From Microcystis aeruginosa Ma_MB_S_20031200_S102 (GTDB taxonomy: Bacteria; Cyanobacteriota; Cyanobacteriia; Cyanobacteriales; Microcystaceae): DNA of 42,483 nucleotides. A model generated the notes under the pieces. The model had not been told where the DNA came from. It was given only the letters and a program-made list of their open reading frames with translations, and searched no databases. A program made the translations under genes and the position numbers. Of the stretch, positions 8,814 to 35,663 are shown one piece after another (the first letter of the stretch is position 1; each line of letters opens with the position of its first letter). The stretch spans positions 1-42,483 of the forward strand of contig SFBI01000143.1 of NCBI GenBank assembly GCA_007095845.1, read 5' to 3'.

Positions 8814-8820
8814 GGTAATT

Positions 8821-9069: not shown

Positions 9070-9423
9070 CTAGGGTAAAAAGCGATCCAAGGCGGCCTTT
9101 AATTCTTCGATTTCTGTCTCGATACTACCTTCCTGGGCAGCTCGGGCAATACATTCGCTCAGATGTTCGTCGAGAATAATTCTGGCGACGCGATCAATCG
9201 CCCCGCGAATAGCGGCAATTTGCATCAAAACTTCGGGACAGGGGCGATTTTCCGATACCATCGTCTTGATGCCGCGAATATGTCCTTCGATCCGCGAGAG
9301 ACGGTTAATAATTTGCTTCAGGGAAGCTTCGCTATGGACGTGGGGAGTCCCTTTTGACTCGTGGTCATGGCCCGTCTCGTCGTGGTTGTGAAGGGGGTCG
9401 AAAGGGGTAATTTGATTAGTCAA
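9070..9423 (-). CDS. inrS: Nickel-responsive CsoR/RcnR-family repressor, InrS-like
   Basis: The 117-residue protein has a histidine-rich N-terminus (residues 12-30) and the all-helical DUF156 fold. Candidate metal ligands are His30, Cys62 (NRPCPEV), His87 and Cys91 (DEHLSEC). Their spacing of 32, 25 and 4 residues equals that of His21, Cys53, His78 and Cys82 known for Synechocystis InrS, which releases DNA on binding Ni(II) and so de-represses the nickel exporter gene nrsD. The conserved DNA-contact arginine region SRIEGHIRGI is present. No exporter is next to it here. A copper-sensing CsoR is less likely given the full InrS ligand set. Confidence 0.85.
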   Translation of the reverse strand: MTNQITPFDPLHNHDETGHDHESKGTPHVHSEASLKQIINRLSRIEGHIRGIKTMVSENRPCPEVLMQIAAIRGAIDRVARIILDEHLSECIARAAQEGSIETEIEELKAALDRFLP

Positions 9424-9757
9424 GGGTTTACTGTCAATTCAGTTCTACTTTCTAGTGTGCCACAGTTGCGAACCCCCAGTCCCTAGGATGGTTTTGTCTG
9501 GGTTAAATTTCAGTTTCGGGGTCTTCGGTTTGCCAATCGGGGCAATTTTTCTCTTGATTCCAACCGGAGGGATGAAATCCACGGGAGGGGGTGGAACGAA
9601 CCACAAAGACACAAAGGACACAAAGATCGATCAATCATAATGTAAGTTAAACTTATCACACAGAACCTAGAAGAGCCGATAAGGGTGTGGGGTATGGGAA
9701 GCAAAAAGTTGATCACTGATCACTGAAATAACCTACTAATGATAGTTTAGATTGACC
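9424..9757. other. Intergenic region with a truncated MITE
   Basis: This 334-base gap between the divergent InrS-like and secreted-protein genes holds a truncated copy of the GGCTCT-ended element at 9584-9677 and one iteron-like GATCACTGATCACTGA stretch just before the next gene. Promoters for both flanking genes must lie here, but I cannot place them with confidence. Confidence 0.55.
9584..9677. mobile_element. Truncated MITE-A copy (GGCTCT family)
   Basis: This stretch matches the inner part and one end of the complete element at 12275-12416: the run ACCACAAAGACACAAAGGAC, then AAACTTATCACACAG and the terminal AGAGCC. The other end (GGCTCTCCCAGG) is missing; similarity starts abruptly near 9584. 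Confidence 0.75.
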
Positions 9758-12147: not shown

Positions 12148-12274
12148 GATTTCTGGGAATAATCCTTCTTTTCTATTGTAATGTCTCGACTAATATAAGC
12201 AGCGTGGTTTCAAAAAATTAACCAACTAATACCATTTGCATCTGGTAAATTACCTAATTTTCAGGAAAAAAGTT

Positions 12275-12416
12275 GGCTCTTCTAAGTTCTGTGTGATAAG
12301 TTTAACTTACAATGTGATCGATCTTTGTGTCCTTTGTGTCTTTGTGGTTCGCTCCACCCCCTCGCTAGGAGTAATGTATCTTAGAATACATTTTACTCAC
12401 CAAACCTGGGAGAGCC
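12275..12416. mobile_element. Complete MITE-A, 142 bp, with target duplication
   Basis: The element runs from GGCTCTTCTAAGTTCTGTGT to its imperfect inverted end CACCAAACCTGGGAGAGCC. The 7-mer AAAAGTT lies on both sides (12268-12274 and 12417-12423). GGCTCT ends with roughly 8-bp target duplications are the hallmark of ISL3-family elements, so this is probably an ISL3-mobilised non-autonomous element. It has no coding capacity. Related copies are at 9584, 28147 and 38806. Confidence 0.85.
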
Positions 12417-12505
12417 AAAAGTTCCGAAAATTTCCCCCCGATCCTTCCAAAGACTGGCACTTTTTGATTTCCAAAAAGCCTAAAAGTTTTACCCAACAAG
12501 GTTTT

Positions 12506-12563
12506 GGCTCTTCGGTTTGTGTTATGCAGTCGATTTATGCTCCCCTATTGAAACATACTAAGT
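12506..12563. mobile_element. 58-bp deletion derivative of MITE-B with 8-bp target duplication
   Basis: It joins GGCTCTTCGGTTTGTGTTAT (one end of the 187-bp element at 33359-33545) to GTCGATTTATGCTCCC, which in the full element lies near the other end, so about 120 bases of interior are missing. AAGGTTTT flanks it exactly on both sides (12498-12505 and 12564-12571), although the terminal CCGAAGAGCC of the right end is absent. Confidence 0.75.
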
Positions 12564-12576
12564 AAGGTTTTTAGAT

Positions 12577-12593
12577 TTATTCAGCAAGTCCTA
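12577..12593 (-). repeat. IS-end-like motif TAGGACTTGCTGAA
   Basis: Read on the minus strand this is TAGGACTTGCTGAATAA. Close variants occur at 5073 (TAGGGCTTGCT), 16384 (TAGGGTTTGCTGAA) and 19529 (TAGGGCTTGCTGAAAA), suggesting ends of one insertion sequence family left behind. No transposase is beside any of them. Confidence 0.5.
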
Positions 12594-12622
12594 AATAAAA
12601 TCGTTCAGTTCAAGGGATAAGT

Positions 12623-12684
12623 GGTGCGTTACGATGGATTGTTACCTTGAAGTCAAAACAGCAATTTTTGCCGTCTAACGCACC
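12623..12684. repeat. 62-bp hairpin element (GGTGCGTTA family)
   Basis: This element has arms of about 14-15 bp, GGTGCGTTACGATGG and the near complement of it ending in TAACGCACC, around a spacer. Copies of exactly the same length are at 33762-33823 and 35556-35617. It is intergenic, about 45 bases downstream of the DnaJ-like gene stop, where it could also act as a transcript-end structure. Confidence 0.75.
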
Positions 12685-12729
12685 CCCGGTTTTAGTGACA
12701 AGATAACTGCTCTGGGTATAGCTAGGAAC

Positions 12730-13737
12730 TTAAATTTGCACCTGTTTGAGATGACGACGGGGATCAGTGGTACGCTGAGATTTAATTTTCTCGTATAATT
12801 CCCGTTCGATCGCCGTTAACTGTTTGGGAGTATCGATGACAATTTTGACTAATTGATCGCCGCGTTGTCCTTTATTATCGATCCAACCTTTACCTCGTAA
12901 GCGTAGGGATTGACTGGAACGAATACCTGCGGGAACTTTTACCGTCACCAGGCCATCGGGGGTAGGAACTTCGATCGCTGTACCTAAAACCGCCTCATCG
13001 GGAGTAATCGGCACTTCACAGGTTAAATTGTCGCCTTCAAAAGTAAAGAAAGGATGGGGTTCTAATTCCACATCGAGAAATAGATCTCCCCGTTGTTTAC
13101 TCAAGGGATCGATTAGTCCTTTACCCCGTACCCGGAGACGATTACCGGTTTTGGTTCCTGGGGGGATTTTGATATCGATCATTTCTCCGGCTAAATTAAC
13201 CCGTTTTTGTACTCCTCGTAAAGCTTCCCCAAAAGTCAGACGCAGTTTAGCGGTGGAGATACCAGAAGTGACCGATTGCGGTGGAGTGCGAGCGCCGGCA
13301 AAGTCGTTAAAATTGCTAAAATCGCCAAATCCTCCCCCCGGAGTCCCGTAGGAATGGGAACCGGGGCGAGTACCGCCGGAGCGGCCCATGCGACCGAGCA
13401 GTTCATTGATAAAATCATCAAAGGTGCTGTACTGGCTAAAGTCAAAACCGTCGGAACCAAAGTCAACCCCCCCATTGCCGCTGGGCCTATTCGATCGCCC
13501 GGCCTGTTGCCAATATTGTCCAAATTGATCGTATTTTTGGCGTTTTTCGCTATCGGAGAGGACTTCGTAAGCTTCACTAATTTCTTTAAAACGTTCTTCG
13601 GCGCTTTTATCGTTAGGATTGCGATCGGGGTGATATTTGACGGCTAATTTGCGAAAAGCTTTTTTAATTTCTTCGGCGCTGGCAGTTTTACCTACTCCCA
13701 GAACGGCATAATAATCTTTATAATCTGCGGCAGGCAT
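12730..13737 (-). CDS. DnaJ-type (CbpA-like) co-chaperone
   Basis: The 335-residue protein begins with a J domain (about 8-72) carrying the HPD motif at 36-38 that stimulates Hsp70 ATPase. A Gly/Phe/Ser-rich linker (about 80-150) follows, then the two-lobed DnaJ C-terminal substrate domain (about 160-320). The four CxxCxGxG zinc repeats of type I DnaJ are absent, so it is a type II protein like CbpA or Synechocystis Slr0093. It delivers unfolded clients to DnaK in the cytosol. No dnaK or grpE is adjacent. A good ribosome site (AGGAG) precedes the ATG. Confidence 0.92.
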
Positions 13738-13817
13738 TGATACGCTATCTCCTTAGCAATGAGGATTCAGTCGGGATATTCCTAATCTAACTTAATTTTA
13801 TCGCTGTCAGGCTTGAA

Positions 13818-13868
13818 TCAGTGATCGGTGATCGGTTAACAGTAACCAGTAACCGGTGATCAGTGAAA
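13818..13868. repeat. Iteron cluster (GTGATCGGTGATCGG / AGTAACCAGTAACC)
   Basis: Short 7-8 base units related to CAGTGATCA and CAGTAACC are repeated head to tail between two minus-strand genes. A second run, ACTGATCACTGATCACTGAT, is at 13922-13946 and enters the end of the TVP38 gene. These are the short iterated repeats common in Microcystis. Confidence 0.7.
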
Positions 13869-13941
13869 ATAAAGTGCCGAAGTTTTCACTTAACACTATC
13901 TACTTAAAACTCCAATCTGATAACTGATCACTGATCACTGA

Positions 13942-14592
13942 TCACTGAAAGGGGAATTGCCGACGACGACGATACCAAGTTCCCACAGCTACTAACAAAG
14001 CAATGAGGGTAAAAGCCATCATTAGGGGCAGTATATCGCCTTTTCCTAGAGATTTTAAACCCGCACCCATCATGACAAAGGGTAAAATTCCGGGTACAGT
14101 GCCTAATAAAGTACCGATAAAATAATCGCGAAAACGAATAGAAGTTAATCCTGCAACAAAGTTAACAATACCGTAGGGAATAATCGGTAATAGACGGATA
14201 GCAAACATATAAAATAGTCCCCCTTGCTGCATTTCTGCATCGATCGCTTGCCATTTTCCTTGAAATTTTTTGGCGGTATATTCCCGGCCAATAGTACGGG
14301 TAAACGCAAAGGCAACTATAGCGGCAACCAAAGCGGCGATCGTTGTCCAAACTGTTCCCATAACCACCCCAAAGATGGCCCCACCGCTAAGGTTTAAGGG
14401 GGTAGAAGGCAGAATTAAAATTGTCCCGATCGTATAGAGAATAATATACAAGATGGGGGCGATAATTCCCATTTGTTTTAACCAAATCTGTAATTGTTGG
14501 GAGTCGATACCACCGATCAGATAAACTCCGATCGCCGTGGCCATAATACAAATTATGGTTAGGATCATGACACCACTTTTAGTTTTAGACAT
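13942..14592 (-). CDS. TVP38/TMEM64 family membrane protein
   Basis: The 216-residue protein has about six membrane helices and the SNARE-associated (DedA/VTT) domain with the family core GGAIFGVVMGTVWTT and FALRL-like segment MFAIRLLPIIPYGIVNF, followed by the glycine-rich YFIGTLLGTVPG. Such proteins sit in the inner membrane; eukaryotic relatives are lipid scramblases and some bacterial ones help in phospholipid or undecaprenyl-phosphate handling, so a lipid role is plausible but unproven. Its last codons and stop (FQ, TGA) come from the CAGTGATCA iteron run, so the native C-terminus may have been altered by repeat insertion. Confidence 0.88.
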   Translation of the reverse strand: MSKTKSGVMILTIICIMATAIGVYLIGGIDSQQLQIWLKQMGIIAPILYIILYTIGTILILPSTPLNLSGGAIFGVVMGTVWTTIAALVAAIVAFAFTRTIGREYTAKKFQGKWQAIDAEMQQGGLFYMFAIRLLPIIPYGIVNFVAGLTSIRFRDYFIGTLLGTVPGILPFVMMGAGLKSLGKGDILPLMMAFTLIALLVAVGTWYRRRRQFPFQ

Positions 14593-16335: not shown

Positions 16336-16383
16336 TTTATCTAAGCAACTGCATCCAGATTAAAATCCTTTTGTTTCTATAGA

Positions 16384-16397
16384 TAGGGTTTGCTGAA
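16384..16397 (+). repeat. IS-end-like motif TAGGGTTTGCTGAA
   Basis: One of four scattered copies (5073, 12577, 16384, 19529) of a short terminal-looking motif; no transposase nearby. It sits between the pseudouridine synthase and RecQ stops. Confidence 0.4.
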
Positions 16398-16479
16398 CAA
16401 ATCTAACTCCCTTCTCCCTTCTTCTCAGTCTCCTATACCTTTTAAAGTGGGGGTTTGCATTAAAAGAGTTCCTCCAGCG

Positions 16480-18591
16480 TTATTGCCGGGGTCGTCTTTG
16501 CCAAGCAACAACTAATTTAATTTCCTCATAACTATAATTATCTCCTAGACTTTCTTTGAGAGTTTTTAGGGATTGATTACCCACTTTTTTAATCGCTAAA
16601 CAAATATATTCCTGTTTATTCTTAGAAACCAACTGATTAATATCAATTGCGTAACCAGCTTCCAGTAATTTAGCTAAATGTTCATAGATAGTTGAGACTT
16701 TTAAGCTTCTTTTGCGAGCGATTTCTTCTGCATTCAAACCATCTTGATAGTATTGGAGAGTGAGGAATTGAGTAGAGGGAAGACTATCCTGACAAAAATC
16801 ATTAATTGCCGCTATAAATATATTCCCATACTGTTGAACTTTGCTTTGTACTACTCCAGAAATTTGACGAAACTGCTCTAAACTCCGGGGTTTTGATTGG
16901 GCCATCAAACGCAGACTAGAATCATGGAAAATAACGTAGGGAGGAATCCCTTGACTATCGGCAATTTTCTTCCGCAATTGCCGCAAGCGATCGAATAATA
17001 AATCACTTTCCATCGTATTGGGATTGTCGTCTCCCAAGATTGGACCGTTAGCTTTTTGGGGGACGGCAATAAACACGGAACGTTCTTTCCGCATCACTTC
17101 CCAACTGTGTTGATTAAGTTTCAAGATTCTAAAATTGTCTTCTGTTTCTACCAGCAGATTTTGTTGGACGAGGGAACGACTTAAACGTTTCCACTCCCCG
17201 AGAGTTTTATCCTTACCGATGCCATAAGTGGATAATAAATGATGTTGATATTGGGTGATTTTTTCACCTTTTCCTCCCCTGAGTACGTTGATTATGTGCA
17301 TCATACCGAATTTTTGTCCCGTCCGCGCCACACAGGATAAAAATTTTTGTGCCTCGATTGTCCAATCCTCAGAATTGTTCCCATTCCGACAGTTATCACA
17401 GTTACCACAGTTACCCGCAAAACTTTCTCCAAAGTAGCCTAGTACACTCGATCTTCTGCATTCAGTCCCTTCGGCATAATCTAACACCTGTCGCAATTGT
17501 TGACGAGCTTTCTGTTGTTCATTTGGCTCGGTTTTTTGATTAATAAAATACTCTATTTTTCTGGCATCTGCAAAGCTAAAAAAGAGGGTACATTTAGCCG
17601 GTTCTCCGTCCCTACCAGCGCGGCCAGATTCTTGATAATATCCCTCTAAATTGCGAGGTAAATCGTAATGAACGACAAAGCGCACATCGGGTTTATTAAT
17701 CCCCATACCGAAGGCAATTGTCGCCACCATAATCTGCACATCATCCCGAATAAAACGGGTTTGATTTTGGCTTCTTTCTCGATCATCCATACCCGCGTGA
17801 TAGGGTAGGGCATCAATACCATCTTTTTGTAACTGTTCGGCCACTTGATCGACGGTTTTACGGCTGATACAGTAAACTATTCCTGCTCCTTTTTGTCCCT
17901 TAATATATTGATACAATTGCTGATAAGATTTACTGGTTTTAGGTTGAACTTCATAATAAAGATTAGGACGATTAAAACTAGCAATATGAATGGAAGTATC
18001 TCGCAATCCTAATTGTTGGATAATATCTTCCCTCACCTGTTGGGTAGCGGTGGCAGTTAAAGCCAGAATTGGCACGGAGGGAAAGCGTTGACGAACTTGT
18101 TTAATTTGTCGATATTCAGGGCGAAAATCATGACCCCAATCGGAGACACAGTGAGCTTCATCTACCGCTAAACAGGCTAAACCGAGGTAATTATCAATAA
18201 CAGCTAAAAAGTCTAAAAAACTAGGCGATAATAATCTTTCTGGGGCGACATATAACAGTTTAATTTTTCCTTGCAGGATTAAAGATTCTCTTTCTCTGAC
18301 TTGTTTAGCGTTTAAAGTGCTATTGAGAAATGTTGCCCCGATGCCATTATCAGCTAAAGCAGTTACTTGATCCTGCATTAAGGCAATTAAGGGAGAAACC
18401 ACCACCGTCACCCCTTTTTTGATTAAAGCAGGTAGCTGGAAACAGAGAGATTTACCGCCTCCAGTGGGCATAATTACTAATAAATCCTGATTGTTTAAAG
18501 CAGCCTCAATTATTTGGCGTTGATTCGGTCGAAATTGATCGTAGCCAAAGTGATATTTTAAGACTTTTTCTAAAGAGTCAATTGCAGCCAT
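16480..18591 (-). CDS. recQ: ATP-dependent DNA helicase RecQ
   Basis: The 703-residue protein carries the superfamily 2 motifs: Walker A PTGGGKS with Lys47, DEAH in LAVDEAHCVSDWGHD, and QESGRAGRDGEPA. The RecQ C-terminal zinc region follows (GTECRRSSVLGYF and NCGNCDNC), then a winged helix, an HRDC domain (about 530-600) and a terminal helix-turn-helix extension (about 605-690). It unwinds DNA 3' to 5' in recombination and fork repair. The length is slightly above E. coli RecQ because of the last domain. It stands alone, convergent with the pseudouridine synthase gene. Confidence 0.95.
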   Translation of the reverse strand: MAAIDSLEKVLKYHFGYDQFRPNQRQIIEAALNNQDLLVIMPTGGGKSLCFQLPALIKKGVTVVVSPLIALMQDQVTALADNGIGATFLNSTLNAKQVRERESLILQGKIKLLYVAPERLLSPSFLDFLAVIDNYLGLACLAVDEAHCVSDWGHDFRPEYRQIKQVRQRFPSVPILALTATATQQVREDIIQQLGLRDTSIHIASFNRPNLYYEVQPKTSKSYQQLYQYIKGQKGAGIVYCISRKTVDQVAEQLQKDGIDALPYHAGMDDRERSQNQTRFIRDDVQIMVATIAFGMGINKPDVRFVVHYDLPRNLEGYYQESGRAGRDGEPAKCTLFFSFADARKIEYFINQKTEPNEQQKARQQLRQVLDYAEGTECRRSSVLGYFGESFAGNCGNCDNCRNGNNSEDWTIEAQKFLSCVARTGQKFGMMHIINVLRGGKGEKITQYQHHLLSTYGIGKDKTLGEWKRLSRSLVQQNLLVETEDNFRILKLNQHSWEVMRKERSVFIAVPQKANGPILGDDNPNTMESDLLFDRLRQLRKKIADSQGIPPYVIFHDSSLRLMAQSKPRSLEQFRQISGVVQSKVQQYGNIFIAAINDFCQDSLPSTQFLTLQYYQDGLNAEEIARKRSLKVSTIYEHLAKLLEAGYAIDINQLVSKNKQEYICLAIKKVGNQSLKTLKESLGDNYSYEEIKLVVAWQRRPRQ

Positions 18592-27368: not shown

Positions 27369-27514
27369 CTAAATCCTGTTTAATTACTGCTACTATGGCA
27401 AGAGTACCTCTCGTTTGACTTCCACCAGAAGTCTGTTTATAGCTTCGGGAATCGTCAAAACCGAGATGTAGTTAAGATTGGACACCACAAAGGCTAAAAC
27501 ATGGATTGTTATTT

Positions 27515-28069
27515 ATGAGCCATTTATCCCTATCCGAACAGATTACCGAGGAACTTCTAGCAATCCTGATCGAAGAAGAAGACACCTATCCCTGGGATGT
27601 AACCGCTGTTGAGAGTCATGATCCCTTAGACGTGACAGAAACTCCTTTTTCTCTGTGTGAAGGTTTGGAAGCAACAGCGATCGCAGCACAAGCTCATAGA
27701 TTCTTTGACAGTTTACACCAAAAATTCCCGACAGTTTCCCTTTCATCCCAGTCTAAGATCCTTGATAAATTTGCCTCTTTACTGCCAGCCGAACATTTAA
27801 ATCGTCTAGTAGAAAGTGCTGAAAATCTAGTTAATAGTCAATTAGATAACTTTGATCGCCTTGTTGTTTGTCTTAGCTCTCTTTTTCCCCAATGGTCTTC
27901 AGAAGATTTACAGGTTTTTGCTCGTCCCTACGCCTATACTATGCGTAATGGCCAGAGCAAAACCACTATAGACACCGAAGATTGGCAAAGTCTTTCCGAA
28001 ATTGAACAAATTCGCCGGAGTGCAGCCATCGCCAGCCAGATTTTCCGCGACTTGTCTTCTCCTGAATAG
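27515..28069 (+). CDS. Conserved hypothetical protein, acidic
   Basis: The 184-residue soluble protein starts MSHLSLSEQITEELLAILIE and has an acidic N-terminal 50 residues and a mostly helical remainder. No membrane segment, signal or catalytic motif is visible. ATG at 27515 is preferred over a TTG three codons upstream. I do not recognise the family. It is read toward the histidine kinase cassette, but a complete MITE lies between, so it is probably not part of that operon. Confidence 0.7.
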   Translation: MSHLSLSEQITEELLAILIEEEDTYPWDVTAVESHDPLDVTETPFSLCEGLEATAIAAQAHRFFDSLHQKFPTVSLSSQSKILDKFASLLPAEHLNRLVESAENLVNSQLDNFDRLVVCLSSLFPQWSSEDLQVFARPYAYTMRNGQSKTTIDTEDWQSLSEIEQIRRSAAIASQIFRDLSSPE

Positions 28070-28146
28070 TCATCTCGTTATCAGCTGCACTGCATTGAAA
28101 CTGCCTATTAGACCTCGACCTAATATTATCTTAAGACTAAAAGTTT

Positions 28147-28291
28147 GGCTCTCTTGGGTTTGGTGGGTAAAATGTATTCTAAGATACATTATTCCTGGCG
28201 AGCAAGTGGAAGGAATCACAGAGACACAGAGGACACAAAGATTGATCTATCCTCTATAATTTAAACTTATCACACAGAACCTAGAAGAGCC
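28147..28291. mobile_element. Complete MITE-A copy, 145 bp, upstream of the kinase gene
   Basis: It runs from GGCTCTCTTGGGTTTGGTGG to CACAGAACCTAGAAGAGCC, same family as 12275-12416. The flanks AAAAGTTT and GATTTTGG do not match, so no target duplication remains. Its right end is 21 bases from the histidine kinase ATG. Confidence 0.85.
28255..28260 (+). promoter_or_regulatory. Candidate -10 box TATAAT inside the MITE
   Basis: TATAAT at 28255-28260 is a perfect bacterial -10. The equivalent positions in other MITE-A copies read CATAATGT or ACATTGT, so this copy differs. No convincing -35 is seen 17 bases upstream (GACACA), so strength is uncertain. Confidence 0.4.
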
Positions 28292-28312: not shown

Positions 28313-30523
28313 ATGCGAACTGCTCAAGATGTAATTAAACAAATATCTGGTTTGTCTCAGAAATTGACAAAGGTTCCTCCTGAGCAGTTTATTCGTGATT
28401 TGCCTGATGAGCTTTGTACCATTTTAGAAGCAGATGCCTGTGTTCTCTGGCAAAAGGATGAAGATAATTTTTTTACTGTCTTAGCAAAATCGAAACAAGT
28501 AAGCGAGGATTATAAACTATTAAAATTAGATGGGAATCTTGAGCAGATCCAAAAAGGTTATCAGAAGCAAGGCTGGGTTTCAATGTTAAGTGCGCCTTTA
28601 GTGGTGGGGGGAGAAATGATCGGTATTTTACAGATTTTTACAAGCAGTGAACATCATTTTTCAGACATAGAAAAAGAAGCCTTCAAACTTTACGCAAATC
28701 TGTGCGCAAATCTGGTTGCTTTATCTTTTGAGAAGGCTTTATACCAAGATAAGGAAACTTTAAAAAAGTTAACAAATATCATGATAGCTATGCTTAGTGC
28801 GAAGGAGATTCATGAGATTATCAACTCTCTTTTAAATGGGGCATTAGATTTAGTAAGTTTAGGTATCAATTCTCCGAAGAAAGAAAGCTTAGTTGGTGAA
28901 ATCAGTATGTTAGATTATTTTACAGGAGAATTAGAAATTATTCGCCAGAGTAAAAATATAGAGCAACATCCTCACTTAAAATTGGGAGAAGGTTTAACGG
29001 GTCGAGCATTAAAAGAAAAGAGGGTCGTTAGAGTCAATAATCTTTCTGATAGTAAGGACTATAAGCAATACTGGCAAGAGGCACATTCAGAGATTGCTGT
29101 GCCAATTTTTGTAGAAAATATTCCTGTTAGACGGGAAGATAAGGTTACATTAGGTTCTAAGCTGATCGGTGTTTTGAATATCGAAAGCCGAGAATTAGAG
29201 GCTTTTTCAGAAATAGATGAAAAGTATCTCGGTTTATTAGCTCGATATGCGGCGATTTTAATTGATAAGCAACAATTCGATCACAAGTTGAGTGACTTGC
29301 GAGAAAGAGAGAGAGAAATCACTAATTTAGTGAGACATAATGAGATTATGGAGAAAGTAATGGATAGTGTTTTTGATGTTTTAGATTTTCACATGGTTAA
29401 CATTTCCTTAGTTAATTTTGAAGCTAAAAGGATTAAAACAGAGTTTGTTAAAATTCGAGGAGAAGATGATTTATTAGTAATAGAGCAATTTAAAAAAGCG
29501 GCTGATCACCTCTTGGAGAGTACTGATATTCAAGCTTGGGTTGTTAACGAAAAAAAGATTGTTGTCCCCCAAGACGTAAATGATTCGCGTTTTAACACTA
29601 CAATTCGTGATAAATTTGGACACAAGAGGCTAATTAGGGTTTTTATGCCGATGATTGACCCTTTTAGCAGTCGGGTAATTGGCACCTTAGAAGCAGGCTA
29701 TCTTAAGACTTATCGAGAGGATATTTATGAACGAGATGTACAAATCCTAGAAAATTTCGTTGATCATGTCGTTTATACTTTAGAACGTAAAAGATCGGGA
29801 TTTTTAGACAAAATTGCTCATGAAATTCGCTCTCCTCTAGTCGGAATAAGAAGCAATGCCAGTTTTCTACAAAAAAGGTGGTCAGAGTTACCCGACGATT
29901 TAATTGATCGCAAGCTAGAGGATATTTTGACTGACAGTGCTATTCTCTTATATCAGTTCGCCGATCTAGAATATATCCTGAAGGGTCATATTACTCGAAA
30001 AGCTAAAATCGAGAGAACTTTTATTTTTAGAGATGTAATTATTAAAACCATTAATCAATTGCGTCCCCTTATTGTAGAAGCTGGTTTTTCAACTGATAAC
30101 ATAAAATATGAGCAGATTGATCCTTCTTTGTTCAAGGTTCAAATTCAAACCGATAAACCTAAAATCAATCAAGTTGTTTATAATTTATTGATTAATGCCA
30201 TCAAATATGCTAAGGTTGATCCTAATCAGTTTAAAATCATTGTTGATATTGACAATAAAAACCGAGATGCCTATATTCTCAAATTTAAAGATTGGGGTAT
30301 TGGTATTAAGGACGCTGATAAAGAGAATATCTTTAGAGAGGGCTTTCGCTCTTCCGAAGCCATCACTAAAAATGTTCTTGGGTCTGGTTTAGGATTGGCT
30401 ATTTCTAAAAGCATCATGAGAAATTTAGGGGGTGATCTAATTTTGGCTAATCTTGCTGAACCTACAGAGTTTCATTTAATCATACCTAAAAAATTTTCAT
30501 TTCCCATTAAAGCTAAAGCTTAA
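28313..30523 (+). CDS. Multi-GAF sensor histidine kinase
   Basis: The 736-residue soluble protein has three GAF-like sensor regions (about 15-150, 150-315 and 335-490) and a C-terminal kinase. The phosphoacceptor is His503 in KIAHEIRSPLVG; the ATPase domain shows Asn624 and Asn628 (YNLLINAIKYA), the G1 box DWGIGIKD and the G2 box GSGLGLAIS at 690-698. There is no membrane segment, so the signal is probably internal, for example a small molecule or redox state. A stand-alone receiver follows 29 bases later, its likely partner. The gene opens a five-gene cassette that ends in a CHAT protease and is more AT-rich than the neighbouring core genes. Confidence 0.9.
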   Translation: MRTAQDVIKQISGLSQKLTKVPPEQFIRDLPDELCTILEADACVLWQKDEDNFFTVLAKSKQVSEDYKLLKLDGNLEQIQKGYQKQGWVSMLSAPLVVGGEMIGILQIFTSSEHHFSDIEKEAFKLYANLCANLVALSFEKALYQDKETLKKLTNIMIAMLSAKEIHEIINSLLNGALDLVSLGINSPKKESLVGEISMLDYFTGELEIIRQSKNIEQHPHLKLGEGLTGRALKEKRVVRVNNLSDSKDYKQYWQEAHSEIAVPIFVENIPVRREDKVTLGSKLIGVLNIESRELEAFSEIDEKYLGLLARYAAILIDKQQFDHKLSDLREREREITNLVRHNEIMEKVMDSVFDVLDFHMVNISLVNFEAKRIKTEFVKIRGEDDLLVIEQFKKAADHLLESTDIQAWVVNEKKIVVPQDVNDSRFNTTIRDKFGHKRLIRVFMPMIDPFSSRVIGTLEAGYLKTYREDIYERDVQILENFVDHVVYTLERKRSGFLDKIAHEIRSPLVGIRSNASFLQKRWSELPDDLIDRKLEDILTDSAILLYQFADLEYILKGHITRKAKIERTFIFRDVIIKTINQLRPLIVEAGFSTDNIKYEQIDPSLFKVQIQTDKPKINQVVYNLLINAIKYAKVDPNQFKIIVDIDNKNRDAYILKFKDWGIGIKDADKENIFREGFRSSEAITKNVLGSGLGLAISKSIMRNLGGDLILANLAEPTEFHLIIPKKFSFPIKAKA

Positions 30524-30552
30524 TTTACAAATTAATGAGAAACTAGAGGATA

Positions 30553-30975
30553 ATGACTATGAAATCCAAAATTTTATTTGTAGATGATGAACTTACAAAC
30601 ATGAATAGTTTCATTTTGGAACTACAACTTACATTAACAGATTATGAAGTTGTTCAAAAGAGAGATGTAGATTCTGGGTTTAAATATCTTGAGGAGAATT
30701 ATGGCGAGATTAAATTACTGATCTTAGATATTCTTATGCCATCGGGAAAGATTACTGAAAATATGGATACAGCAGATGGAGTAGAAACCGGACTTCGTTT
30801 TCTAGAAAAGGTTCGGGAAAGGTTCAGCGATTGCATTTCAATCCTTATTTTTACCAACACACGTAATGACATGACAAAAAAAGCAGAAGATTCTAAGAAG
30901 CTACGTATTCTTTATAAACAAGATTTATTACCTTTTGAACTAGCAGAAGAAATTCAAAAAATCTTAACTGATTGA
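30553..30975 (+). CDS. Stand-alone receiver-domain response regulator
   Basis: The 140-residue protein is a single receiver domain with all canonical residues: acidic pocket Asp11-Asp12, phosphorylation site Asp59 (LILDILMP), Thr101 and Lys122. A loop longer than usual follows Asp59 (residues 63-78). There is no output domain, so it must act by binding another protein, plausibly the next gene products. It is preceded by a good ribosome site (AGAGGA). Pairing with the upstream kinase is inferred from order and 29-base spacing. Confidence 0.9.
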   Translation: MTMKSKILFVDDELTNMNSFILELQLTLTDYEVVQKRDVDSGFKYLEENYGEIKLLILDILMPSGKITENMDTADGVETGLRFLEKVRERFSDCISILIFTNTRNDMTKKAEDSKKLRILYKQDLLPFELAEEIQKILTD

Positions 30976-31038
30976 GTTCAATGAAATTCATGAAAATACA
31001 CTATTCACAATTTATTTTAATCAAAAATAGAGGTTGAT

Positions 31039-31851
31039 ATGCCTGCAATAACAATCGAACATGTTAAAAAACAAAAACAAGAGATTGTATCTAATGTTAA
31101 GGAGCTTGCAATTATTTCGGAAACTCTTAATCGTGAATATTTATCCAGAAAGATACAGCGACTTGAAACGTTGGACAGAAAAATTCAGTCATTGCTAAGT
31201 GAAGTTACCACTGGGGAGCATGGACAAATTCTTAAAACGGATACCGCACTTAAACAAGAAATTAAAGATTTACGAAATCATCATGAATATTTATCCAGAA
31301 AGATACAGCTTTTTTATCCTGATACTTCAGACAACTTTAAGAAAGCAATTTGGTGGTTTCTAGACTCAGGAATAAGCGATGGGTTATCTCTGATACAAGA
31401 CGTTAAGGGTAAACCGCCTTATAATGATCAGGAGATTCAAAACTTATTTAAAAAAGCTGAAACAAGGCTTGCCCAAACTTCCCAAGAATCCCCTGAAACT
31501 ATGATCGCGATCGCCGAGATTAAAAATTATTCCCCCGACCAGCCCTTACAAATGGGTCAATCCTATTGTCTTCAGACTGGCATTAAAAATGAAGGTTTAG
31601 ACGAAGAAGATCCAGATCTTGCTAAATTAGATGTTGTCGTTTGGGCCGAAGGAATGGAAATCTTACCTAAATGGACACAAACTTATTTGCTAAACAAAAA
31701 TCAAGAATTATCCTTGATACAGTTTCAGCTAAAACCGACTAGCTTAGGAAAGAAGAAAATTTGCGTTGAATTTTACTATGAACTTCATTGGTTAGGTGAA
31801 GTCAAATTTGAAATCCAAGTGGTGGAAGCAAAACAGCTTGTGAATATCTAA
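31039..31851 (+). CDS. Coiled-coil / beta-sandwich protein of unknown function
   Basis: The 270-residue protein has a charged helical N-terminal half (about 1-95) with coiled-coil character and a repeated EYLSRKIQ segment (33-40 and 83-90), a short helical region (about 96-150) and a C-terminal beta domain from about 155 (IAEIKNYSPDQPLQMGQSYC) that resembles CARDB/Ig-like folds. The helical part recalls the effector-associated adaptor domains found with CHAT and NACHT proteins, but this is pattern-level only. It lies between a receiver and a CHAT protease gene, so an adaptor role is a fair inference. No enzymatic motif is visible. Confidence 0.7.
   Translation: MPAITIEHVKKQKQEIVSNVKELAIISETLNREYLSRKIQRLETLDRKIQSLLSEVTTGEHGQILKTDTALKQEIKDLRNHHEYLSRKIQLFYPDTSDNFKKAIWWFLDSGISDGLSLIQDVKGKPPYNDQEIQNLFKKAETRLAQTSQESPETMIAIAEIKNYSPDQPLQMGQSYCLQTGIKNEGLDEEDPDLAKLDVVVWAEGMEILPKWTQTYLLNKNQELSLIQFQLKPTSLGKKKICVEFYYELHWLGEVKFEIQVVEAKQLVNI
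31134..31309 (+). repeat. Two exact 26-bp direct repeats, 150 bases apart
   Basis: The 26-bp unit at 31134-31159, beginning TGAATATTTATCCAGAAAGA and ending TACAGC, recurs identically at 31284-31309. The spacing of 150 bases keeps the reading frame (50 residues). Confidence 0.85.
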
Positions 31852-31887
31852 ACTATTACGTCTATCTTCACATTGAGGAATAAAATC

Positions 31888-33006
31888 ATGCCTGAGCAAG
31901 GAAAACTTTCTAAAATAAAATATCAAAGTTATCCAATAGATATAGCTTTTAGAATTGAAAAATCTGATGGTAGATACGAATTATTGATTAGAATAAGTGG
32001 CTATGAATCGAAAAAGTTTTCTTTGCAAATCAGAGAACATGATTTAGCACAACTCAGTGAAGAACTGCATAAAAAACTTAGTAATATGGTCAGGAATAAC
32101 GGTGATATTGATTTAACAAATGAGGACTTATATTCTCTTGCCAAAGTAGGAAATGATGCTTTTATACAGATTTTTGGTAATATTGATGAAGCTCTTTTAG
32201 AAATTATTAAAGAAATTATTGCGGATGGAGATAAATGTCTTGAAATTACTTCTGATGAATTTCTTTTTCCTTGGGAATTAATTTATCCTAACGATCCCCA
32301 TGAAGAAGATACGCTTTCTATTAAAAGCTTTTGGGGATTAAAACATATCGTTAATCGCGTACTTTGTTTGAAAATACCATCACCATCACTGATAAATTTC
32401 TGTCCAAGATTAGGACTATTGGCTTATGAAGGACTACCGACCGTAAAATCTTCAGAAGTTCCTCAATTTTATGATTATCAAGACCAGAGTCTTATCAATC
32501 TCATACACTTAGTTTTTACAACAACAGAAGCGGAAGATTTGAGAACTGAGTTTAGAGAATTTTGGCAAAATGATTTTGACTTAACGCATTTTGCTTGCCA
32601 TGCTCAACATGATAATGCTTATGGAAAATCTTATATTCGTATTAACGAAAATTTTGATGTTACCATTCAGGAACTTCGTACTTTTGGTATTGAAATTAAA
32701 GACAAGCCTCTGGTGATTATTAATGCTTGCGAAGCTGGAATAATGAATCCGTTATCTGTTTCAAATTTTGTCAATATTTTTTTAAATCTTGGAGCAAGGG
32801 GAGCTATTGCAACAGAATGTACGGTTCCTGATCAGTTTGCGGCTGACTTTTCAAGAAAGTTTTACGAATACTTTTTAGAGCAGAAGCGACCACTAGGAGA
32901 AAGCCTACTAGCAACAAGACAATACTTCTTAAACGAGTATAATAATCCTTCAGGTTTGCTATACTCTATGTATGCCCCTCCCAATATTCAATTAGCAGGA
33001 GATTAA
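31888..33006 (+). CDS. CHAT-domain cysteine protease (caspase-like)
   Basis: The 372-residue protein ends in a CHAT domain (about 130-365). The predicted catalytic pair is His238 (THFACHAQHD) and Cys281 (VIINACEAG); a structural core with RGAIATECTVPD and LGESLLATRQYF follows. Residues 1-125 are a variable N-terminal region. CHAT proteases are relatives of caspases and separase; some cleave partner proteins in bacterial defence, as in gRAMP-associated TPR-CHAT. The start at 31888 has GAGGAATAAAATC before it; a TTG 15 bases upstream is less likely. The stop is 2 bases before the next gene. The target is unknown. Confidence 0.88.
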   Translation: MPEQGKLSKIKYQSYPIDIAFRIEKSDGRYELLIRISGYESKKFSLQIREHDLAQLSEELHKKLSNMVRNNGDIDLTNEDLYSLAKVGNDAFIQIFGNIDEALLEIIKEIIADGDKCLEITSDEFLFPWELIYPNDPHEEDTLSIKSFWGLKHIVNRVLCLKIPSPSLINFCPRLGLLAYEGLPTVKSSEVPQFYDYQDQSLINLIHLVFTTTEAEDLRTEFREFWQNDFDLTHFACHAQHDNAYGKSYIRINENFDVTIQELRTFGIEIKDKPLVIINACEAGIMNPLSVSNFVNIFLNLGARGAIATECTVPDQFAADFSRKFYEYFLEQKRPLGESLLATRQYFLNEYNNPSGLLYSMYAPPNIQLAGD

Positions 33007-33008
33007 CC

Positions 33009-33293
33009 ATGAGTGATGACACTATTTTAGTACGAGCTAGTGATGCCACCGTAAGACGAGGTGACGGGCCAAAAGAACTGAAAGTGGAAGTTCTTGCAGA
33101 AAACGTAAACCTCTTTTTAACTCAAGTTGAAACCATTCTGCAAAAGGCTCCTGATCAAGTAGGCAATTTTCACTTTACCGAGTTTTCCGTTTCCGCAGAA
33201 GTTTCTGCCGATGGCAAACTGGTTTTGTTTGGTTCTGGAGTGGAAACAGGCATTAAAGGCGGTTTAACTTTTAAATTTCAAAAGAAAAGTTAA
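33009..33293 (+). CDS. Small Pepco-like partner protein
   Basis: The 94-residue protein is beta-rich, with a central helix (about 29-47) and C-terminal strands reading FTEFSVSAEVSADGKLVLFG and GGLTFKFQKKS. The pattern of SVSAEVSADG, GSGVE and GGLTFKF resembles the small Pepco domain described next to CHAT and trypsin-like peptidases in bacterial conflict systems; I make this match from memory, without a search. It starts 2 bases after the CHAT stop, and its ribosome site (AGGAG) lies inside the CHAT gene, so the two are coupled. It could be a substrate, inhibitor or targeting subunit of the protease. Confidence 0.65.
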   Translation: MSDDTILVRASDATVRRGDGPKELKVEVLAENVNLFLTQVETILQKAPDQVGNFHFTEFSVSAEVSADGKLVLFGSGVETGIKGGLTFKFQKKS

Positions 33294-33358: not shown

Positions 33359-33545
33359 GGCTCTTCGGGACTTGGTATGGTTCGATATGGGAGCATAAAT
33401 CGACTAAATCCTTATTTGGCAAGAGATTTAATTGATTAGTTCGCTCTAGATCAAAAACAATTGACAAAAATCGCCAAATGTCTTTCTATATAAGGGTTCC
33501 ATCCCTTATAAACCCCGTCCATTGCATAACACAAACCGAAGAGCC
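33359..33545. mobile_element. Complete MITE-B, 187 bp
   Basis: It begins GGCTCTTCGGGACTTGGTAT and ends ATAACACAAACCGAAGAGCC, inverted ends typical of ISL3-family elements. The flanks AAATTAAG and GGAATCTA do not match, so no target duplication is visible. Other copies are at 37217-37405 (diverged) and 12506-12563 (deleted). Confidence 0.85.
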
Positions 33546-33753: not shown

Positions 33754-33868
33754 AAACGTAGGGTGCGTTAGACGGCCAAAATTTCTGCTTTAACTTCAAG
33801 CTAACAATCCGTCGTAACCCACCACCACCATTGACTGTGATTGGAATGATTAAATGATGAACTACAAT
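33754..33868 (+). repeat. Left copy of a 115-bp direct repeat bracketing the TA island
   Basis: It starts AAACGTAGGGTGCGTTAGAC, contains the 62-bp hairpin element (33762-33823), and ends ATGAACTACAAT. The right copy at 35548-35663 is the same length within a base and in the same orientation. The 1.7 kb between holds two toxin-antitoxin pairs. Confidence 0.8.
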
Positions 33869-33970
33869 GATGGATAATTATAGGAGGATGCTGTCTGGAC
33901 TGTGATTAGGAGAGATTGTTAAATCCCTACAATAATTTTTATTATTTCATCATCAAAAAAAGGATTAATT

Positions 33971-34234
33971 ATGATCAAAAAAATTAAAATAGCCGATGCT
34001 CAAACCGATTTACAGAGTCTCGTTAAATCGGTTACAGAAGATAACAAAATTTATGCCATTGAGAATCAGCAGGACTCTGTAATTTTGATTTCCCAAAAAA
34101 ACTATGAAAGTTTACAAGAAACCATCGAATTACTATCTATTCCCGATTTAAGAGAAAGCTTACAACTATCTCTACAGCAAATTAATGAAAATGAAACCTA
34201 TTCTCTTGAGGAAGTGTTGGGAGACATTGATTAA
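33971..34234 (+). CDS. YefM/Phd-family antitoxin
   Basis: The 87-residue protein has the YefM/Phd start (MIKKIKIADAQTDLQSLVKS) and the conserved SQKNYESLQET stretch that forms the DNA-binding N-terminal fold, followed by an acidic C-terminal tail that would wrap the toxin. Its stop overlaps the toxin start by one base (TAATG), giving translational coupling. It should both neutralise the toxin and repress this promoter. A ribosome site (AAAGGA) precedes it. Confidence 0.9.
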   Translation: MIKKIKIADAQTDLQSLVKSVTEDNKIYAIENQQDSVILISQKNYESLQETIELLSIPDLRESLQLSLQQINENETYSLEEVLGDID

Positions 34235-34488
34235 TGGTTTATGAAGTCAGATTTACCAAAGAAGCTAAAAAAGATGTTGATAAGCTAACCCCTAAACTTA
34301 AGAAAAAACTGAAATCAATTATCCAAGATACCCTGAGTATTTCTCCCTATAGTGGCAAAAAATTAGTAGGAGATTTAACGGGTTTCTATTCAATTCGCTT
34401 AAGTTATCAAGATAGAATAATTTACACCATTAATGATGAACAGAAGTTAATCTATATTCATCGTGCTAAAACCCATTATGGCGAATAA
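34234..34488 (+). CDS. RelE/ParE-superfamily toxin (YoeB-like)
   Basis: The 84-residue basic protein has the RelE fold pattern: MVYEVRFTKEAKKDVDKL, an internal GDLTGFYSIRLSYQDRIIYT and the terminal RAKTHYGE whose His and Tyr are placed like the catalytic end of YoeB. Such toxins cut mRNA at the ribosome. With the overlapping YefM-type antitoxin it makes a complete pair. The exact subfamily cannot be settled. Confidence 0.9.
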   Translation: MVYEVRFTKEAKKDVDKLTPKLKKKLKSIIQDTLSISPYSGKKLVGDLTGFYSIRLSYQDRIIYTINDEQKLIYIHRAKTHYGE

Positions 34489-34515
34489 ACTAGACCTTGA
34501 AAATCCGTGAAAAGA

Positions 34516-34600
34516 GGGTCTGTAGGCGCAGGGATTTTCCATTACGAATATAATATCATGTCAAGTCGCCTTTGTCAAGAGAAAATTTAACAACATCCAG
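34516..34600 (+). repeat. 85-bp direct repeat, left copy
   Basis: The unit from GGGTCTGTAGGCGCAGGGAT to CAACATCCAG recurs at 35461-35545 with only two differences seen. The two copies flank the orphan antitoxin and HicBA genes. The last third also occurs at 34904-34936 inside the orphan antitoxin gene. Confidence 0.85.
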
Positions 34601-34645
34601 ATTTAGTCGTAACCCATCACCTATCATTGACTATAATTGAATTAA

Positions 34646-34668
34646 TCACTGATAACTGATAACTGATT
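34646..34668. repeat. Iteron ACTGATAACTGATAACTGAT
   Basis: Direct repeats of TAACTGA before the orphan antitoxin gene, same family as at 37419. Confidence 0.6.
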
Positions 34669-34684
34669 AGCAAGGAATAAAACC

Positions 34685-34963
34685 ATGAATACTAAAGAGA
34701 GACTATTACAAGAGATTGAACAAGCGCCGGATTCTTTAATAGAAGAAACTTTAAACTTCCTCCTTTCAGCAAAATCTAGTTATGCTAAATCTGAAAGTAA
34801 TGTAGGAGAGGCAATATTAAAGCTTCTGGAAGAGATACCATTAGACAATGACGACTTAGAAAAGTTACCTATAGATCTTGCTAATCAACATGATTATTAT
34901 CTTTCAAGAGAAAATTTGACAACATCCAGAAAAACGGGGACATTAAGCTTAAATCAAGATTGA
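34685..34963 (+). CDS. Orphan antitoxin-like protein (DUF2281-like), altered C-terminus
   Basis: The 92-residue protein starts MNTKERLLQEIEQAPDSLIE and continues ETLNFLLSAK, the pattern of DUF2281-type antitoxins usually paired with PIN or RelE toxins. No toxin follows; the next gene is on the other strand. The last 20 residues (from SRENLTT) are encoded by a fragment of the 85-bp repeat (34904-34936), so the native C-terminus was probably replaced. Expression and function are uncertain. Confidence 0.6.
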   Translation: MNTKERLLQEIEQAPDSLIEETLNFLLSAKSSYAKSESNVGEAILKLLEEIPLDNDDLEKLPIDLANQHDYYLSRENLTTSRKTGTLSLNQD

Positions 34964-34965
34964 AA

Positions 34966-35190
34966 TTACAGCAGACGAATAAATTCTTCCTGTGTCAGTT
35001 CAGCATCGCGTAAAATTTTTAAGAGTAATCCTTTCCCGACAGTTTTCCCCCGATGAACAGGTACGGTGACAACTCTTCCATCTTCATGTTTTAAGCGCAG
35101 ATGACTTCCTTTTTGTCGGATAGATTGAAACCCTATTCTCGTTAAAGCTTTGATAACTTCATCACCTGTTACTACCGGTAATTTTGGCAT
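34966..35190 (-). CDS. hicA: HicA-family mRNA interferase toxin
   Basis: The 74-residue protein has the HicA double-stranded RNA-binding-like fold with the catalytic histidine in GSHLRLKHEDG and the start VTGDEVIKALTRIGF. It inactivates translation by cutting mRNA. Its ATG overlaps the hicB stop by one base, so the antitoxin is translated first. It converges with the orphan antitoxin gene, stops 2 bases apart. Confidence 0.93.
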   Translation of the reverse strand: MPKLPVVTGDEVIKALTRIGFQSIRQKGSHLRLKHEDGRVVTVPVHRGKTVGKGLLLKILRDAELTQEEFIRLL

Positions 35191-35402
35191 CAGATAGACA
35201 CCTTTTCAATTCCAACAAACTCCGATACATCTTCAGGATTGTCATCTTCCAAGCAAAGTTCAATCACTTCCCTGATATTCTTCATCAATTCATCAATCGT
35301 TTCCCCTTGACTGTAACAACCCCGAAGTTGAGGAACTTCCCCAACATAATACCCATCCTCATCTCGTTCAATGACAACATAAAACTCTCTTTGATGGTTC
35401 AT
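35190..35402 (-). CDS. hicB: HicB-family antitoxin
   Basis: The 70-residue protein is the short HicB type: partial RNase H-like fold (FYVVIERDEDGYYVGEVPQL, RGCYSQGETIDELMKNIREV) without an added DNA-binding domain. It binds HicA to neutralise it. ATG at 35402 is preferred; three upstream codons are possible. The order hicB then hicA is the reverse of the common hicA-hicB order but is frequent in cyanobacteria. Confidence 0.92.
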   Translation of the reverse strand: MNHQREFYVVIERDEDGYYVGEVPQLRGCYSQGETIDELMKNIREVIELCLEDDNPEDVSEFVGIEKVSI

Positions 35403-35460
35403 GGTTCTCAATCCTTAAAAAAATTATCGCTATCTAAGCGATTATTGAGACTTGAAAATA

Positions 35461-35545
35461 GGGTCTGTAGGCGCACGGATTTTCCATTATGAATATAATA
35501 TCATGTCAAGTCGCCTTTGTCAAGAGAAAATTTAACAACATCCAG
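35461..35545 (+). repeat. 85-bp direct repeat, right copy
   Basis: Matches 34516-34600 over the full 85 bases. It lies between the hicB start and the right 115-bp repeat. Confidence 0.85.
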
Positions 35546-35547
35546 AA

Positions 35548-35663
35548 AAACGTAGGGTGCGTTAGACGGCAAAAATTTCTGCTTTAACTTCAAGCTAACA
35601 ATCCGTCGTAACGCACCACCAATCATCAACTATGATTGGAATGATTAAATGATGGACTACAAT
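35548..35663 (+). repeat. Right copy of the 115-bp direct repeat
   Basis: Starts AAACGTAGGGTGCGTTAGAC, contains the 62-bp hairpin element at 35556-35617 and ends ATGGACTACAAT. Same orientation as 33754-33868. Confidence 0.8.

Follow-up and report, generated by a model that had tools for sequence, protein, structure and literature searches.

Five open reading frames, all on the plus strand, occupy positions 28313–33293 of the 42,483-nt window (the whole stretch of DNA analysed) from Microcystis aeruginosa Ma_MB_S_20031200_S102 contig SFBI01000143.1. The intergenic gaps are 29, 63, 36, and 2 bases; the third, between the adaptor and CHAT genes, is counted from ATG 31888 and falls to 21 bases if the CHAT start is TTG 31873. 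An earlier note on this DNA described five tightly spaced plus-strand genes, including a kinase with His503 and a receiver with Asp59; the coordinates and gaps are confirmed, as are both residue positions. The features are:

28313..30523, plus strand: sensor histidine kinase of 736 aa, soluble (two GAF domains in tandem, HisKA with His503, HATPase_c)
30553..30975, plus strand: stand-alone receiver, 140 aa, Asp59 (Response_reg, conserved residues)
31039..31851, plus strand: putative bridging adaptor protein, 270 aa (open reading frame; N-terminal kinase-linked domain plus C-terminal CHAT-linked domain)
31264..31470, plus strand: helical EAD-like adaptor domain, aa 76–144 of the adaptor protein (leave-one-out HMM)
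31531..31824, plus strand: beta (Ig-like) domain, aa 165–262 of the adaptor protein (hhalign against CHAT-protein profiles)
31888..33006, plus strand: CHAT (caspase-like) cysteine protease, His238/Cys281 (PF12770; dyad alignment)
33009..33293, plus strand: Pepco small protein, 94 aa (PF24393)

The kinase carries the elements of a two-component kinase: HisKA and HATPase_c domains, the phospho-acceptor His, and the ATP-binding boxes. Its Pfam scores are 87.2 bits for GAF_2, 77.2 for GAF, 56.8 for HATPase_c, and 28.4 for HisKA, and it contains no clear membrane segment (maximum 19-residue Kyte-Doolittle mean, 1.64). Full-length relatives share 39–56% identity with it, and residues H503, N624/N628, D660/G662/G664, and G690–G694 are invariant in eight of eight aligned kinases. 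A plasmid search with the kinase hit 1,906 records, all through partial matches, at 21.9–30.7% identity among the 40 matches listed, and no relative turned up when viral contigs were scanned with an alignment of the kinases.

The receiver scores 24 bits for Response_reg, under the curated Pfam cut-off of 30.2. Despite this score it has the Asp pocket, phospho-Asp, T/S, and Lys of a receiver: D11, D12, D59, and K122 are invariant, with T/S at 101, in all nine aligned receivers (from eight loci). The Pfam scan found no output domain in it, DNA-binding domains included. No specific receiver was found in any of 11 other genomes of the genus. Matches to the receiver in 46 other genomes, at about 20–23 bits, were discounted as generic receivers or chance hits.

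Nine loci, all cyanobacterial, contain a full-length kinase relative: that of the window, L106, and L107–L113. In every one, kinase, receiver, and adaptor domain follow immediately downstream of one another on the same strand. The third gene of the eight other loci is itself the effector, with the adaptor domain fused to a subtilase in seven (L107–L113) and to an nSTAND1 NTPase in one (L106). The window alone pairs the adaptor domain with CHAT and Pepco; no CHAT gene stands beside kinase, receiver, and adaptor in the subtilase or nSTAND1 loci, and the exact five-gene set was found only in the window. The sensory half is shared by nine of nine loci; the effector half differs.

Subtilase D/H/S motifs are complete in L107–L112 (the six checked), Pfam S8 scores are 155–168 bits for the three of seven subtilase effectors scanned, and the L106 nSTAND1 domain scores 327.8 bits (Pfam) with an intact P-loop. 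L113 reads as L111. A further adaptor-nSTAND1 protein, in genome G039, is cut by a contig end, and no specific receiver was found in that genome. In small, unrooted trees, the window kinase clusters with that of subtilase-type L107 (support 1.000), and the receiver and adaptor-domain trees give the same grouping (0.876 and 0.864). Because all three elements group with L107, it is simplest to suppose that the window lineage changed its effector.

With leave-one-out HMMs, the adaptor domain is detected in eight of eight members (six groups) at 40.2–80.1 bits, that of the window at 61.2 bits (E 6.5e-19); the best of 212 decoys reaches 9.9 bits. Residues L91, F100, W106, and G111 are invariant in all eight. 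Three weak matches, at about 17 bits, were set aside as chance. None of the eight members has a noteworthy Pfam-A match at E≤1 (the best, at 0.12, is to something unrelated), and none matches the known EAD, Death-like, or TRADD-N models, with which the domain may nonetheless share fold-level kinship.

The CHAT protein scores 56.6 bits for PF12770 (curated cut-off, 24). It is 372 aa long from ATG 31888, or 377 aa from TTG 31873, so that the H238/C281 dyad of the first numbering is H243/C286 in the second. The dyad that the earlier note placed at His238 and Cys281 therefore keeps its numbers from the ATG, and the two residues, whose variation in relatives would have counted against the proposal, are present in every one of the 10 CHAT proteins aligned, a count that includes the window's own. 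In other genomes, matches are limited to roughly the last 150 residues, and plasmid matches reach back to residue 121; an alignment with L072, a multidomain CHAT protein, left the first 200 residues unaligned. A first scan of genome contigs with CHAT alone found no match, nor did phage records contain one; a PDB sequence search gave chance-level matches only, and a structure model made without an alignment (pLDDT 37.5) is unusable.

Pepco scores 60.5 bits for PF24393 (curated cut-off, 27). Among 72,556 plasmid records it has a single match at E≤0.001, a Streptomyces gene directly 3' of a CHAT gene; the CHAT query, run separately, reaches the same plasmid locus, near which no kinase or receiver is annotated. 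A C14 caspase gene lies within 1.5 kb of Pepco in 25 of the 30 best-scoring loci, and is present in four of 10 further loci. Another Pepco in the window's own genome pairs with a caspase-FGE protein. Here and in Streptomyces, CHAT is the caspase-superfamily neighbour.

This pairing raises the possibility that Pepco is a cognate, antitoxin-like inhibitor of the protease, and that the kinase branch controls only its release or expression. Pepco's habit of accompanying caspases fits such a role, as does its form in both the window and Streptomyces: a separate small gene abutting the protease gene. However, no open reading frame of the subtilase-type loci L107–L113 matches the window Pepco, so gating in those loci must come from elsewhere, and the receiver lacks a DNA-binding output domain. 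We consider this explanation doubtful.

The genomic setting bears on what the cassette does. The window's flanking proteins that were scanned (a subset of its open reading frames) are mostly housekeeping products and toxin-antitoxin pairs, and the surroundings are not an obvious defence island. PADLOC matches within the cassette are weak or generic (kinase, PDC-M43B, 40.4 bits; receiver, PDC-M60B, 22; CHAT, BovA, 17.7). Three subtilase-type loci were scanned for a few neighbours each: in one, L112, a PbeC restriction gene stands about 1.6 kb from the triad and is the clearest defence neighbour found, and another has a match to the candidate family PDC-S03. A role in defence is thus more weakly supported than receiver gating. 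Multicopy repeats adjoin the cassette's site, and genes resembling transposases (judged by eye) stand at the equivalent position in two further genomes of the genus. Comparison with four near-complete genomes of the genus revealed no empty site, the sequences to the left and to the right of the cassette being widely separated in them.

Cytosolic GAF kinases often sense small molecules, and several of the loci lie among metabolic-looking genes (judged by eye). Together with the single PbeC gene as the clearest defence neighbour among the few scanned, this would suit endogenous stress or housekeeping proteolysis, in which light, redox, or nutrients would lead the kinase to tune a protease whose targets are the cell's proteins, outside any conflict. 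Such a function is unlikely, however, given the patchy distribution (the specific receiver being found, within the genus, in only one of the genomes searched) and the swapping of effectors between loci. Moreover, CHAT, subtilase, and nSTAND effectors recur in conflict systems, as documented in part in PMC10907252.

The adaptor protein bears on whether the two halves of the cassette belong together. It matches no Pfam family above cut-off. Its AlphaFold model places helices within residues 6–148 and strands within 157–263, which fits the earlier description of a coiled-coil/beta protein, although model confidence is low (mean pLDDT, 56.0; residues 71–140, 67–78; beta part, 31–55). Against a profile of six CHAT proteins, the adaptor C-terminus scores 42.9 in hhalign (E 1.6e-5; best of 200 shuffles, 23.9); against the CHAT-protein beta domain alone, E is 6e-8 and the probability 94.7. 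A similar beta domain precedes CHAT in multidomain cyanobacterial CHAT proteins of about 750 aa. The N-terminal half has no hhalign match to CHAT proteins. On sequence grounds, then, the adaptor protein appears to bridge the halves, with a kinase-linked domain at its N-terminus and a CHAT-linked beta domain at its C-terminus.

Plasmid searches with the adaptor protein and with the L107 adaptor region found no match, Foldseek with the model found nothing at E≤0.001, and a PDB sequence search with the adaptor profile gave chance-level matches only. A Streptomyces protein upstream of CHAT, similar by eye, is not supported as a carrier of the beta domain (hhalign 13.3–14.2, the higher score compared with a maximum of 20.2 in 60 shuffles), and scoring a CHAT protein from Agrobacterium against the beta-domain profile likewise gave no match (13.9). 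A Hymenobacter TerB protein upstream of CHAT scores 26.5 (≤18.0 in 100 shuffles) with the window adaptor in the profile, 20.7 without it, and 17.2 directly against the window adaptor; that it carries a CHAT-type beta domain is only suggestive.

Independence of the two halves, with a signalling operon (kinase, receiver, adaptor) lying next to CHAT and Pepco but not linked to them in function, is highly improbable: each half is found without the other (kinase-receiver-adaptor without CHAT, and CHAT-Pepco without an annotated kinase, the separation proposed earlier as a test) and the site borders repeats with transposase-like genes in relatives, but one polypeptide unites a domain from each half, the third gene is itself the effector in eight other loci, the genes share one strand with gaps of 2–63 bases, and four of the five share a low GC content (0.314–0.358; Pepco, 0.404; rest of the window, 0.425). 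Because the adaptor joins kinase-linked and CHAT-associated domains, chance adjacency appears unlikely. A receiver-gated effector seems more likely than sequence alone had allowed, because the fused adaptor contradicts chance adjacency and because the CHAT dyad is so uniformly conserved.

The cassette is probably a two-component-gated protease system, one variant within a modular family whose members retain the sensory unit but exchange the effector. In the proposed mechanism, the cytosolic GAF kinase would sense a small molecule or a redox or metabolic change, autophosphorylate on His503, and pass the phosphoryl group to receiver Asp59, as the conserved residues and gene order suggest. Lacking an output domain, the receiver may bind the helical domain of the third protein as its output, in keeping with their co-occurrence. 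The adaptor beta domain would hold the CHAT protease, a separate protein, or set its position. Pepco may be CHAT's own small partner (inhibitor, chaperone, or first substrate), by analogy with caspase-type pairing. During infection or stress, the likely outcome is controlled proteolysis that ends in dormancy or death.

Among known ideas, Detocs and the EAD-linked conflict systems come closest; features of each that the analysis checked are lacking here. Detocs wires a kinase to a receiver and to varied effectors, and its effector carries a receiver domain. The present family shares the two-component wiring and the effector variety, but its effectors share a separate helical adaptor domain and are proteases or nSTAND proteins, not PNP; Response_reg has no Pfam match in the adaptor, CHAT, Pepco, or the four sister effectors scanned. 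Detocs is described as a phage-defence two-component system, a three-gene family whose best-described member has a PNP effector (PMC11249213).

The EAD-linked ternary systems (VMAP, iSTAND) are presented as having effectors with small swappable adaptor domains and caspase- and trypsin-type peptidases, in multicellular prokaryotes including cyanobacteria (Kaur et al. 2020, 2021). These traits are the points of likeness. Those systems, however, have MoxR and vWA as their core (Kaur et al. 2020, 2021), whereas this cassette has a kinase and receiver; no MoxR, vWA, or known EAD model matched the window proteins scanned with Pfam (a subset of its open reading frames). Kaur et al. 2020 report no histidine kinase domains in effectors associated with vWA, and Kaur et al. 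2021 describe receivers that occur independently of kinases.

Craspase (TPR-CHAT, Csx29) is likewise described with a CHAT His-Cys dyad, autoinhibited until its partner signals (PMC9729208). Here the proposed switch would instead be a phosphorelay, and in the Pfam scan the CHAT protein showed no TPR, nor did the cassette show a gRAMP, CRISPR, or TPR part. Pepco adjoins a caspase-like protease as in Pepco-caspase pairs, but the partner is CHAT, with Pepco 3' of it, as in Streptomyces. Finally, the L107 effector, the only one scanned with PADLOC, matches the models "subtilase" (88.9 bits) and IetS (43.4 bits), recalling IetAS and other subtilase defence candidates; in contrast to these, kinase and receiver precede it, and no IetA-like AAA partner occurs among the few neighbours scanned.

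Two-component systems are known mostly as transcription controllers. In these loci, an interchangeable adaptor domain appears to connect the kinase-receiver pair straight to effectors that are proteases or NTPases. With about even odds, they represent a conflict or cell-suicide family, not found described in the literature searched, in which a canonical histidine kinase and a lone receiver act on effectors protein-to-protein via a new adaptor domain, the effector slot being filled by a subtilase, an nSTAND1 NTPase, or a caspase-like protease that comes with Pepco and is joined through a CHAT-type beta domain. If true, this would tie classical phosphosignalling in bacteria to the caspase-like machinery of cell death.

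The five closely spaced plus-strand genes described in the earlier note are present in the window, which is the entire contig C50 of a 4.57-Mb genome, and the kinase, CHAT and Pepco assignments all hold:

28313-30523, plus strand: kinase gene; Pfam GAF, HisKA and HATPase above cut-offs
30553-30975, plus strand: receiver gene; Pfam 24 bits, below the cut-off of 30.2
31039-31851, plus strand: adaptor gene; no Pfam family
31888-33006 (alternative TTG start at 31873), plus strand: CHAT gene; Pfam CHAT above cut-off
33009-33293, plus strand: Pepco gene; Pfam Pepco above cut-off

Judged by its sequence, the second product is a recognisable yet divergent receiver. Within the adaptor gene, a 30-base duplication (97%; 31130-31159 and 31280-31309) repeats the peptide YLSRKIQ, with one copy ahead of the adaptor domain and the other within it.

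The sensory half (kinase, receiver and adaptor domain) recurs as a conserved unit. When the genome_contigs collection (84,980 species) was scanned with the kinase alignment, via two short peptide patterns, 19 kinase relatives emerged: seven full-length (L107-L113) and 12 partial, the latter matching only within query residues 331-734 at 22-34% identity. A receiver and an adaptor-subtilase protein are encoded next to the kinase in all seven full-length loci. With the window and the nSTAND1-type locus L106, receiver and adaptor domain adjoin a full-length kinase in nine of nine loci; these represent about seven lineages, because L108 and L109 are mutually close and L111 and L113 near-identical. 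Searched with the window proteins, the 12 partial-kinase loci yield nothing for the adaptor and, for the receiver, a single weak match (L118, 14.8 bits).

The adaptor-protein search covered 386 genomes of the phylum, with up to six first-look candidates scored per genome; besides itself, the window protein retrieved a single relative, in G333. There the order is kinase, receiver, and then a 987-residue protein with an N-terminal adaptor domain and a C-terminal subtilase, a triad common to G333 contig C53 and Tolypothrix brevis record JAHHIJ010000022.1. The receiver search led to G038, in which a kinase and two tandem receivers precede an adaptor-nSTAND1 protein. In the nSTAND1-type locus L106, a stop codon interrupts the match of the first of the two tandem receivers after the kinase (8587-9449); directly upstream of that kinase lies a 639-residue protein (11703-13619) with no Pfam family above cut-off.

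Profile comparisons show that the adaptor domain is real. It was aligned over about 70 residues in eight members, with L91, F100, W106 and G111 (numbered as in the window protein) invariant, and none of the eight has a meaningful Pfam-A match. Leave-group-out profiles score (in bits) the window at 61.2, L107 at 80.1, L108 and L109 at 70.4 and 66.7, L110 at 40.2, L112 and L111 at 57.1 and 56.8, and L106 at 42.9, while none of 212 decoy proteins exceeds 9.9; the near-copy L113 is represented by L111. Across the 386 genomes, the profile finds four strong places: G333, G000, G038 and G039. (Three further matches, at about 17 bits each, were set aside.) The newly found G039 protein is a near relative of the G038 protein, is cut by the contig end, and has its nSTAND1 part assigned from similarity to L106 only. 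The specific receiver was not found in G039 (the top score, 29.8 bits, came from a partial match within a 703-residue frame), so this locus either lost its partners to an assembly gap or is without them. Between adaptor domain and subtilase, the L107 protein (11707-14358) has about 250 residues (160-410) that match no Pfam family and recur in the other subtilase-type proteins read; this stretch may be a pro-domain or an inhibitor.

Kinase His503 and the ATP-binding boxes are invariant in all eight aligned kinases, as are receiver residues D11, D12, D59 and K122 in nine of nine aligned receivers (T or S at 101). All six subtilases checked retain their D, H and S motifs, and the histidine and cysteine that the earlier note assigned to CHAT are kept in ten of ten proteins, the window's included.

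The effector half, CHAT plus Pepco, also exists alone, without the sensory half. Among 72,556 plasmid records, window CHAT matched 11 and window Pepco one; queried separately, both match Streptomyces NBC_01006, where Pepco (65.4 bits) is the small gene immediately 3' of CHAT. The annotation of the surrounding 10.4 kb shows neither a kinase nor a receiver; two hypothetical proteins there were read from annotation only. Pepco occurs in 45 of the 386 genomes of the phylum. A C14 caspase gene lies beside it in 25 of the best 30 loci (exceptions: L037, L042, L047, L054 and L061) and a caspase gene is present in 4 of 10 further loci (L063, L065, L069 and L071), chosen largely because their Pepco matches were short or partial; L071 and L050 are one place. 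Window CHAT detects no CHAT gene in any of these 40 loci, which makes CHAT-Pepco a rare combination. The window's genome has a second Pepco (L071 8833-11095, contig C15), directly 5' of a caspase-FGE-sulfatase protein. By its annotation, an Agrobacterium plasmid cluster (L153 1201-10735) comprises three CHAT genes, two TIR-domain genes, a metallophosphoesterase gene and a caspase-family gene.

Of the evidence for cooperation between the halves, the adaptor fusion is the strongest. Over residues 165-262, the adaptor matches the beta domain of cyanobacterial CHAT proteins of about 750 residues (L072, L156-L159 and L152), with a score of 42.9 (E 1.6e-5; 6e-8 against the beta domain alone); controls reached 23.9 (200 shuffles), 13.6 (reversed sequence) and 18.9 (ten kinase chunks). 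Because beta domain and CHAT share one chain in those proteins, the window adaptor and CHAT resemble one such protein divided in two, with the kinase-linked domain apparently placed at its front, a likeness limited by the first 200 residues of window CHAT, which did not align to L072. The earlier note had allowed that the halves might be independent and adjacent by chance. Each does occur apart (subtilase and nSTAND1 loci; Streptomyces CHAT-Pepco), but they are unlikely to be unlinked neighbours here: the adaptor fuses domains of both. A TerB-domain protein lies directly upstream of a similar-sized CHAT gene on a Hymenobacter plasmid (L154 3190-5729), with a possible, weakly supported version of this beta domain; this is possibly a third way of wiring CHAT.

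In small, unrooted trees of kinase, receiver and adaptor domain, the window pairs with subtilase locus L107 (supports 1.000, 0.876 and 0.864). The simplest reading is that the window lineage exchanged a subtilase effector for CHAT-Pepco. The cassette behaves like an acquired, variable one. Its GC content is 0.343 overall (Pepco alone, 0.404; rest of the window, 0.425). In eleven other genomes of the genus, searches found neither a full-length CHAT relative (some have weak generic matches) nor the specific receiver (five have only partial matches, at most 27.2 bits). Homology with four near-complete genomes of the genus ends at 28079-28112 and restarts at 35671; parts of 33814-35653 match too in two of them (G005 and G009). 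An empty site was not seen in these four, because the cassette flanks lie far apart there.

Short repeats flank the cassette (28146-28291 and 33359-33545) and are multicopy in the same four genomes; the right-hand one is MITE-like, with imperfect terminal inverted repeats (33359-33379 and 33525-33545, 76% complementary). To the left, a 187-residue gene (27506-28069; no Pfam family above cut-off) is shared with four other genomes of the genus. Next to it, on the side facing the cassette, G009 has what by eye is a TnpB-like gene and G005 a transposase-like gene, an arrangement suggestive of an insertion hot spot. Two toxin-antitoxin pairs follow shortly after the cassette: Phd/YefM with a YoeB/ParE-like toxin, and HicA with HicB (33971-34488 and 34966-35411).

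The effector classes make an anti-phage role plausible, with little direct support. PADLOC was applied to eight neighbouring genes. Of three in L112, from a Crocosphaera MAG, one encodes PbeC of phosphorothioate-based restriction (16378-18444; 965.7 bits), about 1.6 kb downstream of the triad. Among three in L107, one matches candidate family PDC-S03 (56.2 bits); the one in L110 gave a weak repeat match, and the one in L106 none. Passages of PMC7159879, PMC8195603, PMC11249213, PMC10907252 and PMC9729208 served for comparison. The kinase-receiver-adaptor-CHAT-Pepco arrangement is not named in the titles or abstract openings that searches of the open-licence literature listed, a body that excludes most subscription papers; its novelty is limited to that literature.

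Together, these comparisons establish co-conservation, domain sharing, effector exchange and intact active-site residues. In the proposed mechanism, Pepco would be a CHAT partner, inhibitor or substrate, the last possible because CHAT substrates, according to a passage of PMC9729208, are commonly encoded close to the protease. The kinase would transfer phosphate to the receiver, the receiver would bind the adaptor domain, and CHAT would be activated or released as the outcome.
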